Of a stretch of 64,000 nucleotides of DNA, positions 24,608-30,685 are shown one piece after another; the first letter of the stretch is position 1, and each line of letters begins with the position of its first letter. A model generated the notes under the pieces. The model searched no databases, was not told the origin of the DNA, and was given only the letters and a program-made list of their open reading frames with translations. The translations under genes were made by a program, and so were the position numbers. This stretch comes from Cyanobacteria bacterium M_surface_10_m1_298 (GTDB taxonomy: Bacteria > Cyanobacteriota > Cyanobacteriia > PCC-6307 > Cyanobiaceae), in contig VGPT01000003.1 of NCBI GenBank assembly GCA_016882485.1, forward strand, positions 1 through 64,000, given 5' to 3'.

Positions 24608-27226
24608 ATGGCGGATCCAACCGAACCCCGTGAGTTGCCCTCGGGGGACGGAGAAGGACCTGGCGGATCCGACGGCCGAATTATTCAGGCTGATCTTCGC
24701 AACGAGATGTCGCGCTCCTATCTGGAGTACGCGATGAGTGTGATCGTGGGACGGGCGCTGCCCGATGCCCGCGACGGTCTCAAACCGGTGCATCGCCGCA
24801 TCCTCTATGCGATGTACGAACTGGGGCTCACCAGTGACCGCCCTTACCGCAAATGCGCCCGTGTGGTGGGTGAGGTGCTGGGTAAGTACCACCCCCATGG
24901 CGACACCGCGGTGTATGACGCCCTAGTGCGGATGGCGCAGGACTTTTCCATGCGCATGCCGTTGATCGACGGCCACGGGAATTTCGGGTCTGTGGATAAC
25001 GATCCACCGGCCGCCATGCGATACACCGAGTCGCGGCTTCAGGCGCTCACAACCGACAGTCTTCTTGAAGACATCGAGAGCGAAACCGTCGATTTCATCG
25101 ACAACTTCGACGGGTCTCAGCAAGAGCCCACGGTGATGCCGGCGCGCGTCCCGCAGTTGTTGCTCAACGGCTCCACCGGGATCGCCGTGGGGATGGCGAC
25201 CAACATCCCCCCCCACAACCTCACGGAGCTAATCGACGGACTGCTGGCCCTGATCGCCAATCCTGAGCTGAGCGATCGGGAGTTGATGGGAATCATCCCC
25301 GGTCCCGACTTCCCCACCGGTGGCCAGATTCTGGGTCGACGCGGGATCCGGGAGATGTACGAAACCGGCCGCGGTTCCGTGACGATGCGCGGCGTCGCTT
25401 CGATTGAAACGATCGAGGCCAAGGGACGGCCCGATCGTGATGCGGTGATTATCACCGAGCTTCCTTATCAGACCAACAAGGCGGCGCTGATCGAGCGCAT
25501 CGCTGAATTAGTCAACGACAAGAAGCTCGAGGGGATCGCCGATATTCGCGATGAATCCGATCGCGATGGCATGCGCATCGTGATCGAGTTGCGCCGTGAT
25601 GCCTACCCCCAGGTTGTGCTCAACAACCTGTTCAAGCTCACGCCGCTGCAGAGCAACTTCAGCGCCTACATGTTGGCGTTGGTCAAGGGAGAGCCGATCC
25701 TGCTCACCTTGCGCAAGATGCTTGAGGTGTTCCTCGACTTCCGGGTCGAGACGATCGAGCGGCGCACCCGCTACCTGCTGCGCAAGGCGGAAGAACGCGA
25801 CCACATCCTGCTGGGCCTGCTGATTGCGCTCGACAATCTCGACGCGATCATCGCCTTGATCCGCGGCGCAGCTGACACCGCTTCGGCGCGGGCTGAGTTG
25901 GTCAGTCAGTTCGGTCTGAGCGAGATCCAGGCTGACGCCATCCTGCAGATGCAGCTGCGTCGTCTCACCGCGCTTGAGGCCGACAAGATCCGGCTCGAGC
26001 ACGAGGATCTGCTGGCCAAGATCACCGACTACAACGACATCCTGGCCCGCAAGGAGCGGGTCTTCGGCTTGATCACCGAGGAGCTCGGTGTGATCCGTTC
26101 GCGCTACGACTCGCCCAGGCGCACCGAAATTCTCGACGTTGAAGGCGGCCTCGAGGACATCGATCTGATCGCCAATGAGCGCTCAGTGGTGCTCCTCACC
26201 GAGAACGGCTATCTCAAGCGGATGCCGGTGAGCGAGTTCGAAGCCACCAGTCGCGGCACCCGTGGCAAGGCCGGCACCAAAACCCAGGGCGAGGAGGCCG
26301 TGCGCCTCTTCATCAGCTGCAACGACCACGATTCGTTGTTGCTTTTCTCGGATCGTGGTGTCGTTTACACGGTGCCTGCCTATCGCGTGCCGATCTGCAG
26401 CCGCGCCGCCAAGGGAACGCCGATCGTGCAGTTGCTGCCCATCCCCCGCGAGGAGCAGATCACCTCGCTGCTTGCGGTGAGTGAGTTTGCAGAGGATGCC
26501 GTGCTGGTGATGCTCACCAGTGGGGGCTTCATTAAACGCACCCGACTCTCGGCCTTCGCCAACATCCGCTCCAACGGTCTGATCGCCATCTCCCTTGAGG
26601 AGGGTGATGCCCTCACCTGGGTTCGCTTGGCCCAGCCCGGCGACAGCGTGTTGATCGGATCGCGCAATGGCATGACCATCCACTTCCGCCTCAGCGACGA
26701 GGAGCTGCGTCCGCTGGGCCGCACCGCCCGCGGGGTGCGCGCGATGAACCTTCGCCCTGGTGATCAGCTCGTGAGCATGGATGTGCTCCCGGTTGAACTG
26801 GCGGATCGTGTCGAAGGCAGTGCGGCCGCCGGTGATGACGACGACGCGGAAGAGGTGGCTCCGAGCGATGGTCCCTGGGTGCTGGTGGCTTCGGCCAGCG
26901 GCTTGGGCAAACGGGTGCCTGTCGATCAGTTCCGTCTGCAGAAGCGGGCTGGGATGGGCCTGCGCTGCATGAAGTTCCGCCGGGATGGCGATGTGCTCGT
27001 GGGCCTCAAGGTGCTTGGCACTGGTGAGGAGTTGCTGCTCGTCAGCGAGCGTGGCGTGATTGTGCGGATGCAGGCCGACGCGGTGCCCCAACAGTCCCGC
27101 GCCGCCACCGGTGTTCGTCTCCAGCGCCTGGATGCCGGCGATCGCCTCTCGGAGGTGGTGTTGGTGCCCCCTGCTCCTGAGGAGGACGAGGAAGACGCCT
27201 CGGCCGATGCCGCCGCCGATGCCTGA
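24608..27226 (+). CDS. gyrA: DNA gyrase subunit A
   Basis: An 872-residue type II topoisomerase A subunit that cuts and rejoins the DNA gate segment. The winged-helix breakage domain is at 30-160 with the catalytic Tyr139 in [10 protein letters not shown], and the [17 protein letters not shown] helix is intact. The tower and coiled-coil gate reach to about residue 500. The C-terminal beta-pinwheel contains a GTRGKAGTK stretch close to the GyrA-box position. The end is acidic ([15 protein letters not shown]). The -10-like TAAAAT lies at 24578-24583. Its stop overlaps the next gene's start by 8 bp. Confidence 0.96.
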
Positions 27227-28352
27227 TCACCGCGGCGATCTTTGGATCGCCAACACGGTGTCAGATCTGATCGAGGGAGATGTGCAGGAGCACCTCCCGC
27301 TGGAGGCCATTCCTCTTGCAGGTGATGTGCTCGGCCTTGGCACCACCACCAGCATCGACAATGGGGAGCTCACCTTTTTACCCAACGAAACGGGTAACAC
27401 CACCATCTGGAAGTGCCAGGCCTCCGATGGAGGCATTCGCCGATTGATGTCAGGCGATGGGGGCTCTCACTTCCCCTATGTCTGCTTCAGTGCCGATGTC
27501 TCGGGTTTAAAGGTCAACGTTGATCTTGAGCAACTGCGGCCAGAGCCCGGCGCTCCGTTGCAGGCCGTGGTGGCTGAGGCCATTGATTGGCTGCGCCATC
27601 AGAACCGACTGCCGGAAGCCCCGATCTATGGCCTGCGGGCTGAGTTGGAGTGGGACAGTTTGATCATCACCGTGGCCTCGAAGTTGTGCATGGGGCAGCA
27701 GCGCCGCAATGTTCGGCTGGCCACGAGTGAAAGCAGTGGCTCCTTGGCCGCCCTCAGCATTTACCAACTGCTTCAGCACTACCGCTTGGCGCCCACCGAT
27801 CCTGGTGATGCCAGTGATCCGATTCGCTACCTCGGGGCCTCGTTGCACTGGGATTGCTGCGGTTTCTATGACACCCAACCTGAGTTGGGCCGGGTCACCG
27901 TTCCTCAGCCCAATGCCCATTTGCATCTGCATGGCTGCAGTCAGGACCTGCGCTTTGGCGGCCATCTCCACCACGAACACCCCGGCACCCGCCTGCGGCG
28001 CGTGAAGCGATTGGCGATCTATCCCCTGCAGCAGCTCCATACCCTGGCCAGTGATCTGGCCATTGAGCAGGTCAGCTTCGCGAATGGATCGCTTCAGTTC
28101 CGCGTCGTGAACCACGGGGCGATGGATGTCAGCTCTGTGGGGGTCGCCATTGTTGTCGATGACAGCTACACCACCCATCGCTATCTGCGTTTGCCATGGC
28201 TCTCTGCTGGAGGCAGTGAACAATTCAGCGTGCCTCTGGAGTTGGCCAAGGGAGAGCACCGCCTTGAGGTGATCGCTGATCCCCAGAGGCAGATTCTGGA
28301 GACAGCTGATCTTCAGGCCAACAACCGTGCTGTGTTGGCGGTCAGGATCTAA
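27219..28352 (+). CDS. Acetolactate decarboxylase-like domain fused to CARDB domain
   Basis: A 377-residue protein starting at ATG 27219 inside the gyrA stop region. Residues about 12-268 resemble alpha-acetolactate decarboxylase: the start [27 protein letters not shown], then GFYDTQPE and the metal-site segment HLHLHG (234-239) with FGGHL (246-250). This corresponds to the HxH...GGH zinc ligands of BudA. Residues about 280-377 form a CARDB-type Ig fold ([34 protein letters not shown]). No signal peptide is visible. The fusion is unusual; the product could act on acetolactate or on another keto acid. Confidence 0.7.
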
Positions 28353-28374: not shown

Positions 28375-29382
28375 TCAGCGCGACGCCAGAGCCCAGCACA
28401 ACAGCGTGCTGTAGCCGGCGATGCTCGCTAACTGGAGCACATTTTCCAGCCGATCAATCTGACGTCCAACCTGTTGCGGGAGCGCATCACCCGATCGGCT
28501 GATCAAGTTGGCGCACCAGATGAACTCGCAGAAAAACACCAGAGTGACCAAGTACGAGAAGGCGTAGAGCCCATCGATCTCCGTGAGATAAGGCAGTGAT
28601 GGCAGGGACTCGCGATAGGCCTGTTGCATGAACACCAGCGTCAGCAGGATGACCGGCGGAATGGCAAGACGTTCTGAGCTGAAGCTGCTGCGCAGATTCG
28701 AGCTCAGCAGCATGACTGACATGGTGATGGCCAGAGGTAAAAGCCATTTCACCAGCGCCGACCAGACAATCGGCCGGTAGATCAGCTCCATTTCCAGACC
28801 GGAAGCGGTGCTGAATAGGCGCCACTGGAGAAGTCTGTAGCCATTCATGTTGCTTCGGGTGCTGACGCCAGAGTGCTTGGCATCGGGGCGGAGAACGATG
28901 CTCGGCGGCGGCGTTAGCTCGGCCTGAACACTGGGACTGGGCTGGAGTGTGAGTTGGAGTGGGAGTGGATCGAACGGGTAGCCGCGAAAGTCAATTTCGT
29001 CGGAATAAAAGGTGCCATGAAAGCGGTAGCTCCGCTCCAGACGCGGGCCATGGCGGATCGGGCTGCGGATCGCTTCGAGCTGGGCATCCCATGGTGTGAC
29101 CTGGTTCTGAAACCGAATCAAGCTGACTGGATCGATGCCGGCTTCAAGCCAAGTCCGCATTACGGGTTCTGGGGCTGACAGGTGCAGGATCCCTTCGATG
29201 TTGTAGGTCTTGCTCTGAGAGGAGAAGCCGTAGACGTTGTCCACATTGAGAGCAACCTCTACCGGCACCGCTGGAGCCGATGGGTTGGAAGCCTCTGCTG
29301 GCCATCCCACCAGCAATGCAGTGCTGAGGACGAGGCAGAGAAGAAGCCGCTGCACTGCCTGAAGCCAGCGCCTCGATCCCAT
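28375..29382 (-). CDS. Pentameric ligand-gated ion channel homologue
   Basis: From ATG 29380-29382 the product has 335 residues: signal peptide (LLLCLVLSTALLVGWPAEA), an extracellular beta-sandwich (about 35-205) and four membrane helices (about 207-227, 238-257, 270-292, 314-333). YPFDPLPLQL at 135-144 matches the conserved FPFD strand, and LPSLPYLTEIDGLYAFSYLV matches the M2-M3 loop/M3 text of the Gloeobacter channel GLIC. M1 has its conserved Pro. The Cys-loop cysteines are absent, as in other prokaryotic members. M2 contains a Pro-Pro pair (242-243). ATGs at 29388 and 29412 are alternatives. Ligand unknown. Confidence 0.75.
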   Translation of the reverse strand: MGSRRWLQAVQRLLLCLVLSTALLVGWPAEASNPSAPAVPVEVALNVDNVYGFSSQSKTYNIEGILHLSAPEPVMRTWLEAGIDPVSLIRFQNQVTPWDAQLEAIRSPIRHGPRLERSYRFHGTFYSDEIDFRGYPFDPLPLQLTLQPSPSVQAELTPPPSIVLRPDAKHSGVSTRSNMNGYRLLQWRLFSTASGLEMELIYRPIVWSALVKWLLPLAITMSVMLLSSNLRSSFSSERLAIPPVILLTLVFMQQAYRESLPSLPYLTEIDGLYAFSYLVTLVFFCEFIWCANLISRSGDALPQQVGRQIDRLENVLQLASIAGYSTLLCWALASR

Positions 29383-29425: not shown

Positions 29426-30685
29426 ATGTCGATTGAGGTGCTGGTGATCGGGGCAGGCCCCGCTGCCCTCTGCCTTGCCGCTGCCCTGGCTGAGCGTGGT
29501 GTTCAGGTTCAGGGTCTTGCACCCGATGATCCCGCTGCGCTCTGGCCCAACACCTATGGCATTTGGGGCCCAGAGGTGGATGACCTTGGTTTGGGGCATT
29601 TGCTGGGCCATCGCTGGAGTGACACCCGCAGCTACTTCGGTGATGGCCTCAGCACGGCCGCCGTTACCCATGGCATCGACTACGGCCTTTTCGACAAAAC
29701 AGCGCTGCAGCAGCACTGGTGGCGTATCTGCCAGGCGGCTGGGGTGACCTGGGAGCGAGGTCGGGCAGACGCCATCGAGCACAACGCCGATGGCTCCATC
29801 GTGATCACTGAGGCAGGCGAGCGCCTTCAGGCTCGCTTGGTGATCGATGCCAGCGGTCATCACTCTCGCTTTGTTAAGCGCCCCGATGAGGGCCCTGTGG
29901 CGGGTCAGGCGGCCTATGGCATCGTTGGCCGTTTTTCAGCACCGCCGGTGGACCCGGGCCAATTCGTGCTGATGGATTACCGCAGTGATCACCTCAGCGA
30001 GGCCGAACGGCGCTGTGGACCAGCCACCTTCCTTTACGCCATGGATTTCGGCGAAGGGGTGTTTTTTGTGGAAGAGACCTCCCTCGCCCTCGCCCCAGCG
30101 GTGCCCTATGAGGTGCTCAAAGATCGATTGTTGCGCCGCTTGCACCATCGCGGCATTGAGGTTGAAACGATTGAACATGAGGAGTTGTGCCTGTTTCCGA
30201 TGAACCTTCCTCTGCCAGATTTGCAGCAGAGAGTTGTGGCGTTTGGTGGATCCGCCTCCATGGTTCATCCCGCCTCCGGCTACATGGTGGGTGGCCTGTT
30301 GCGCCGTGCTCCTGCATTGGCTGCAGCGGTCGCACGCGGTTTGCAGATGCAAGCCATGGATGGAGAGCAGTTATCGCGTCTCGCCTGGGATTCCCTTTGG
30401 CCTCTTGAGCTGCAGCGCAAACGTGCTCTCTACTGCTTTGGATTGGAGAAGTTGATGCGCTTTTCTGAGCCTCAACTTCGTGCTCACTTCACGACCTTTT
30501 TTAGCCTCCCGCAACCGGATTGGTATGGCTTTCTCACCAATACCCTCACGCTCTCTGAATTGGTGATGGCCATGGTGCGTTTGTTTGTGCAAGCCCCCTG
30601 GGCTGTGAAATTCGGTTTGATGGGCATGCAGGGCCGCGAGCTCCAGCTCGGGCTGAGGTTGGTGTGGCCTGGGGCTGGCCGATAG
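29426..30685 (+). CDS. crtL: Lycopene beta-cyclase (CrtL type)
   Basis: This FAD-dependent enzyme closes the beta-ionone rings of lycopene to make beta-carotene. The start ATG 29426 has GAGG 5 bp upstream and opens with the dinucleotide fold VLVIGAGPAALCLAAAL. NTYGIWGPE, LVIDASGHHSRF, MDYRSDH and GFGGSASMVHPASGYMVGG-type text (FGGSASMVHPASGYM) are family signatures. Length of 419 residues is typical. It is flanked on both sides by minus-strand genes that look accessory (channel and transporter fusion). Confidence 0.95.
   Translation: MSIEVLVIGAGPAALCLAAALAERGVQVQGLAPDDPAALWPNTYGIWGPEVDDLGLGHLLGHRWSDTRSYFGDGLSTAAVTHGIDYGLFDKTALQQHWWRICQAAGVTWERGRADAIEHNADGSIVITEAGERLQARLVIDASGHHSRFVKRPDEGPVAGQAAYGIVGRFSAPPVDPGQFVLMDYRSDHLSEAERRCGPATFLYAMDFGEGVFFVEETSLALAPAVPYEVLKDRLLRRLHHRGIEVETIEHEELCLFPMNLPLPDLQQRVVAFGGSASMVHPASGYMVGGLLRRAPALAAAVARGLQMQAMDGEQLSRLAWDSLWPLELQRKRALYCFGLEKLMRFSEPQLRAHFTTFFSLPQPDWYGFLTNTLTLSELVMAMVRLFVQAPWAVKFGLMGMQGRELQLGLRLVWPGAGR

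Follow-up and report, generated by a model that had tools for sequence, protein, structure and literature searches.

The pentameric ligand-gated ion channels (pLGICs) GLIC, from the cyanobacterium Gloeobacter (PDB 3eam), and ELIC are studied models for which, to our knowledge, no native ligand has been settled. Loop B of ELIC binds amines, and the GABA-A beta subunits bear a Cys-loop disulfide and a long cytoplasmic loop. Bacterial pLGICs, a Synechococcus member among them, and their binding-protein neighbours have been known since 2004: the prokaryotic ART-LGIC set of Tasneem et al. (2004, PMC549065) includes members from a Synechococcus sp. and from Methylococcus, and those authors described fusions to PBP-I as well as stand-alone PBP-II genes in conserved neighbourhoods, and proposed a role in solute chemoreception; urea and UrtA are not mentioned there.

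The window analysed here, a stretch of 64,000 nucleotides from Cyanobacteria bacterium M_surface_10_m1_298, contains a gene whose product, P0001, had been taken in a sequence-only reading for a Cys-loop receptor homologue. On the strength of sequence profiles and a predicted structure, P0001 is assigned to the pLGIC superfamily as a pentameric-channel subunit of the Pro-loop type, without the animal disulfide. P0001 alone matched ELIC at E 5.4e-5 (phmmer against the PDB); a profile of 27 cyanobacterial sequences matched ELIC at E 3.3e-19 and GLIC at about 1e-12, with almost the entire chain aligned, and a profile of 74 relatives matched ELIC at E 1.7e-25 and GLIC at 8.5e-18 along their length. 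Profile searching thus puts P0001 inside the superfamily, as had been proposed, and judged by sequence its nearest solved relative is ELIC, ahead of GLIC. The curated models are less sensitive: PF02932 gives P0001 11.8 bits, below its cut-off of 28.1, the Pfam ectodomain model Neur_chan_LBD does not match it, and NCBIfam fails to recognise it (NF033918, 18 bits against a cut-off of 500).

The predicted fold agrees with this assignment. A single-chain AlphaFold2 model built from the deep alignment of 74 sequences (pLDDT 92.2, pTM 0.80) contains the pLGIC ectodomain and superposes on GLIC with Z 23.4 and an rmsd of 2.5 Å over 276 aligned residues (VIA-align). A shallower model had already given a Foldseek E of 7.8e-19 with GLIC chains as the best structural matches, and Z of at least 8 for all 1000 re-aligned chains, with pLGICs on top; the Foldseek rmsd of 5.5 Å obtained with it was rejected as a true misfit, since the deeper model fits at 2.5 Å. 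The signal peptide, beta-sandwich, YPFD strand and four transmembrane helices of the earlier reading could all be located (Table 1). Cysteine is absent from residues 32–284, so that there is no Cys-loop disulfide pair, and P0001 is no Cys-loop receptor in the strict sense.

Table 1. Features of the channel gene, its product and the neighbouring genes, in window coordinates
Feature	Position	Strand	Basis
pLGIC (Pro-loop receptor) subunit gene, 335 aa, P0001	28375..29382	-	ORF, profile and structure matches
Signal peptide, residues 1-31, AEA/SN	29290..29382	-	sequence; model helix 3-24; hydrophobic peak 7-25
Periplasmic ligand-binding-type beta-sandwich (predicted), residues 38-205	28768..29271	-	model strands E38-54 to E196-204; aligns with ELIC ectodomain
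Pro-loop motif YPFD, residues 135-138	28969..28980	-	Pro136 invariant in family
M1 helix, residues 206-227	28702..28767	-	DSSP of model; Pro216 invariant
M2 pore helix, residues 232-257	28612..28689	-	DSSP of model
Glu237, M2 -1'	28672..28674	-	corresponds to the Glu of SERL in ELIC (intermediate ring of charge)
Pro242-Pro243, M2 4'/5'	28654..28659	-	4' invariant in subfamily
M3 helix, residues 268-296	28495..28581	-	DSSP of model; Asp270 invariant
M4 helix, residues 303-333	28384..28476	-	DSSP of model
gyrA	24608..27226	+	sequence; conserved flank of clade
CARDB-containing protein, start uncertain, convergent neighbour	27222..28352	+	PF07705 E 2.1e-7; kept in two relatives
crtL lycopene beta-cyclase, divergent neighbour	29426..30685	+	NF045687 E 3.5e-190; synteny
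Sodium:dicarboxylate symporter (PF00375) fused to SBP_bac_3 (PF00497), 716 aa	30698..32848	-	domain matches

The open reading frame runs from an ATG at 29380–29382 to a stop at 28375–28377. Alternative in-frame starts upstream (ATG 29388, TTG 29412) would only lengthen the N-terminus, which has the form of an export signal, with an Arg-Arg pair, a hydrophobic core and a cleavage site between MGSRRWLQAVQRLLLCLVLSTALLVGWPAEA and SN. A single copy was found in its own genome (1.99 Mb, 93% complete). Values of dN/dS for 12 pairs of relatives lie between 0.05 and 0.21, so these are real genes under purifying selection.

P0001 shares with ELIC homology over the full length, the lack of a Cys-loop disulfide, SERL at M2 positions -2' to 1', the PFD block and the M2-M3 text LPxLPY.T..D, but differs from it in Pro 4'/5', Phe13', Gln15'-Gln16', a loop-B Gln-Pro-Ser and its cyanobacterial host. 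With GLIC it has in common a cyanobacterial origin, the simple architecture of signal peptide, ectodomain and four transmembrane helices, and the fold (Z 23, 2.5–2.7 Å) at about 18% identity; the sequence match is weaker than that of ELIC, His11' of GLIC is replaced by Leu, and Pro4' is not known from GLIC. The M2-M3 text of P0001 had been singled out as resembling GLIC, and that resemblance is real, but ELIC and GABA-A beta resemble the text just as closely, and GABA-A beta gives its best single-sequence match (E 0.018–0.2). At the start of M2, however, the GABA-A beta subunits, which form an anion channel, have SAAR where P0001 has SSER.

Hallmark residues were checked against the frequencies that Jaiteh et al. 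(2016, PMC4795631) tabulated for the superfamily, where the proline of the beta6-beta7 loop occurs at 100%, the acid of [F/Y]PxD at 93% and the pre-M1 arginine at 94%. Among 74–79 relatives of P0001 the Pro-loop proline, the M1 proline, Arg0', Leu9' and Thr10' of M2 and the M2-M3 proline are invariant, and P0001 itself carries the three superfamily prolines, all invariant in the subfamily, as Pro136, Pro216 and Pro261. The salt bridge is more variable. The Pro-loop acid is Asp138 in P0001, and the position is occupied across the subfamily by D (22%), E (26%) or G (25%). Arg203 aligns with the pre-M1 arginine of sister sequences (YRP versus SRP), at a spacing of 13 residues from the M1 proline against 12, so that on alignment P0001 keeps the acidic partner and probably also the basic one. 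The charge pair was held to be universal among ART-LGICs (Tasneem et al. 2004, PMC549065), whereas in the 89 non-redundant members with Pro4' a pre-M1 R or K is present in 34 and both halves of the pair in 21. A claim that acid and base co-vary in the subfamily was dropped (Fisher p 0.083, a value that ignores kinship). With the supposedly universal bridge missing from many of its members, the subfamily is a natural experiment in coupling.

The register of M2 was set by an ungapped match to the text of ELIC and GABA-A beta3, from Arg0' to Pro23'. The helix of P0001 reads S-2' E-1' R0' L1' A2' I3' P4' P5' V6' I7' L8' L9' in its first half and T10' L11' V12' F13' M14' Q15' Q16' A17' Y18' R19' E20' in its second; which of these side chains face the pore is suggested by analogy with known pLGICs. 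Arg0', Pro4', Leu9', Thr10', Gln15' and Pro23' are invariant in the 74 relatives. ELIC has Ser at position 4' and GABA-A beta3 has Gly, and the alignments mark Pro4' as the invariant signature of the P0001 subfamily. The Pro-Pro pair had been called unusual for a pore helix; it is indeed there, but only the second proline (5') is restricted, to 27% of members. The Pro4'/Gln15' combination was absent from 13 more distant cyanobacterial pLGICs, and on a tree from which the M2 columns had been left out it requires two changes, either a gain in both cases or a gain and a loss, between which the tree does not distinguish. The model built from 27 sequences had shown a break in M2 before Pro4' (helices 232–238 and 241–258, pLDDT 69), which is absent from the 74-sequence model, where the helix is continuous over 232–257.

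Of the 89 Pro4' members, 87 have an acidic residue at -2' or -1'. In P0001 it is Glu237, which lies at -1' in the register of ELIC SERL and of the GABA-A beta text, near the intracellular mouth at a position linked to cation selectivity, just as the sequence-only reading had it; in ELIC the Glu at this position forms an 'intermediate ring of charge' that shapes conductance (PMC3119659). Cation selectivity of the channel is thus the likely reading. In the clade of the window gene the residues at 2' (Ala) and 6' (Val) are apolar, and in the family as a whole 6' is Thr in 79%. Cation channels are usually polar at 2' and 6', so the window-clade pore may be a poor conductor. The invariant Pro4', together with the apolar 2' and 6' of the window clade, makes the subfamily a natural experiment in pore design.

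On present evidence P0001 probably forms a homopentameric, cation-selective pLGIC that sits in the plasma (or thylakoid) membrane and is opened by a ligand from the periplasm. The cleaved signal peptide would export the protein and five copies would assemble into a ring; the beta-sandwiches of that ring would bind a small solute in the periplasm, either free or delivered by a solute-binding protein; the Pro-loop and the M2-M3 loop would relay the motion to M2; and the hydrophobic gate at Leu9'/Phe13' would then open and let cations pass the Glu-1' ring, shifting the membrane potential. The most economical idea is that a captured nutrient would trigger ligand-dependent cation entry and so a change in membrane potential or ion balance. 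If the channel were instead gated by protons, as GLIC is, periplasmic pH would be the stimulus and an organic ligand would be unneeded. That GLIC chains are the best structural matches and that GLIC is itself cyanobacterial speak for this, but we hold it to be unlikely, given that the pore histidine H11' of GLIC (named in the title of PDB 3tlt) is Leu in P0001, that the sequence is closer to ELIC, and that the binding-protein genes next to the channel gene in related clades point to an organic ligand. Gating by amines, as in ELIC, would fit ELIC being the closest solved sequence and the blocks RF.G.F....DFR..PFD and SERL that the two have in common; it is nonetheless very improbable, because the loop-B Glu-Pro-Phe of ELIC aligns with Gln-Pro-Ser in P0001 and the position of its Glu is variable (Q, V, E) even within the window clade. 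With both His11' and Glu-Pro-Phe replaced, neither known agonist class is favoured for the periplasmic ligand of the preferred reading. The chemotaxis receptor proposed by Tasneem et al. was also considered and set aside: an MCP signalling domain was not found in the window genome, although control genomes were positive, which makes a role in motility unlikely.

A candidate ligand for such channels is suggested by a sister clade, in which the channel gene adjoins a gene for an UrtA-like urea-binding lipoprotein at 21 loci (L045–L049, L052–L062, L070, L085, L089, L091 and L095), on the same strand in 20 of them and convergently in L070. The hosts belong to four phyla, Cyanobacteria, Gammaproteobacteria, Myxococcota and Verrucomicrobia. 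The UrtA gene lies upstream of the channel in the proteobacterial, myxobacterial and verrucomicrobial loci, and stop and start codons overlap as ATGA in L085, L089 (Synechococcus WH7803) and L095. Five UrtA-like products that were tested scored 437 to 558 bits on TIGR03407 (cut-off 493), one, tested against PF13433, gave E 9e-132, and for two the closest proteins of solved structure were urea-binding UrtA. In alignments, the urea-holding residues described for Prochlorococcus UrtA (PMC10392092) appear conserved, within FGGWTS, YEGQE, GSDYV and NTLNGD. The adjacency and these residues together suggest that urea, or a near analogue of it, is what the UrtA-linked clade senses via the binding protein, and the pair names both a candidate ligand (urea) and a mechanism (hand-over from a binding protein) for bacterial pLGICs. 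The pairing is not evidence on the ligand of P0001 itself: in the tree without M2 columns P0001 lies in another clade, and UrtA was rejected as its partner, with no UrtA match in the neighbourhood or in its own genome (93% complete). In the literature searched, which left subscription papers and preprints outside, no paper was found that joined pLGICs to UrtA, or Cys-loop receptors to picocyanobacteria. Nor does that literature appear to describe the Pro4'/Gln15' subfamily itself, the variability of its salt bridge or its pairing with UrtA.

The neighbourhood of the window clade is different. Neighbouring genes were kept only if confirmed by profile or tblastn, antisense shadow ORFs having cluttered the first clustering. 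The order gyrA, [CARDB protein], channel on the opposite strand, crtL is kept in most of the clade; channel and crtL diverge, their ATGs lying 43 bp apart if MSIEV is the start of crtL. The N-terminus of the CARDB protein matches acetolactate decarboxylase weakly. In the window and two further genomes the gene for the symporter fused to a solute-binding (SBP) domain comes after crtL, and in two relatives (L009/L132 and L035) the channel is directly divergent from it. Strong matches to the fusion occur in 7 of the 10 window-clade genomes and in 4 of the 141 others (Fisher 1.2e-7), and the association with the window clade is seen within channel holders as well (Fisher 0.0015), kinship and genome size being ignored in both figures. 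In most clade members the fusion is not adjacent to the channel, and several genomes have the two at a great distance from each other. Homologues of the fusion were seen in 18 of the 151 family genomes, split into several frames in L035 and L043.

The SBP-fused symporter is a candidate functional partner of P0001. Such a partner would be central if P0001 were a receptor of pLGIC fold that conducts little or nothing and acts through conformational coupling to it; the unusually apolar pore (A2', V6', L9', F13'), the prolines 4'/5' in its cytoplasmic part and the co-occurrence of 7/10 against 4/141 genomes would all suit this. We give that account little credence, since the gate and the acid ring are conserved, as expected of a conducting pore, and the co-occurrence takes no account of kinship and genome size. 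Returning to a conducting, ligand-gated channel, it is tempting to suggest, as a tentative generalisation, that the Pro4'/Gln15' subfamily comprises widely transferred solute-sensing channels assisted by binding proteins, with urea-loaded UrtA-like lipoproteins gating one clade and the SBP domain of the symporter the window clade. If so, the channel would be an electrical read-out of nutrient capture.

Such channels had been described as rare and patchy in bacteria. For the phylum this stands, the subfamily profile matching 36 of 386 cyanobacterial genomes; it is less true of the window's own taxonomic family, in which matches were found in 40 of 151 genomes, with up to six matching stretches per genome, so that the gene is indeed present in related genomes. 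PF02932 yields matches above its cut-off in 3 of the 386, and Pfam-based annotation misses the subfamily. PF02932 matches of about 20 bits in ORFs of about 508 aa from one phylum-level group were not counted as pLGICs, since they align to another part of the profile (about 60–200). A search of 84,980 species genomes yielded 143 confirmed loci, of which 80 were retained; these counts are lower bounds biased to members with a conserved M2, as the search needed one peptide pattern. The cyanobacterial hosts are Synechococcus, Cyanobium, Vulcanococcus and Aphanothece, and the others belong to Methylococcales, Luminiphilus/Halieaceae, Myxococcota and Verrucomicrobia. Most of the listed small genomes of the family (1.3–1.9 Mb) have no match, G074 and G105 being exceptions, and this absence is consistent with loss in genome streamlining. 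At L095:133-2542, G106:C47, G279:C92 and G331:C57 two pLGIC genes lie in tandem or nearly so, hinting at heteromeric bacterial channels. Finally, a cyanobacterial subclade (L021, L022, L024–L026 and L028–L030) has about 100 extra residues before the ectodomain, with a hydrophobic segment that is possibly an uncleaved fifth membrane anchor.
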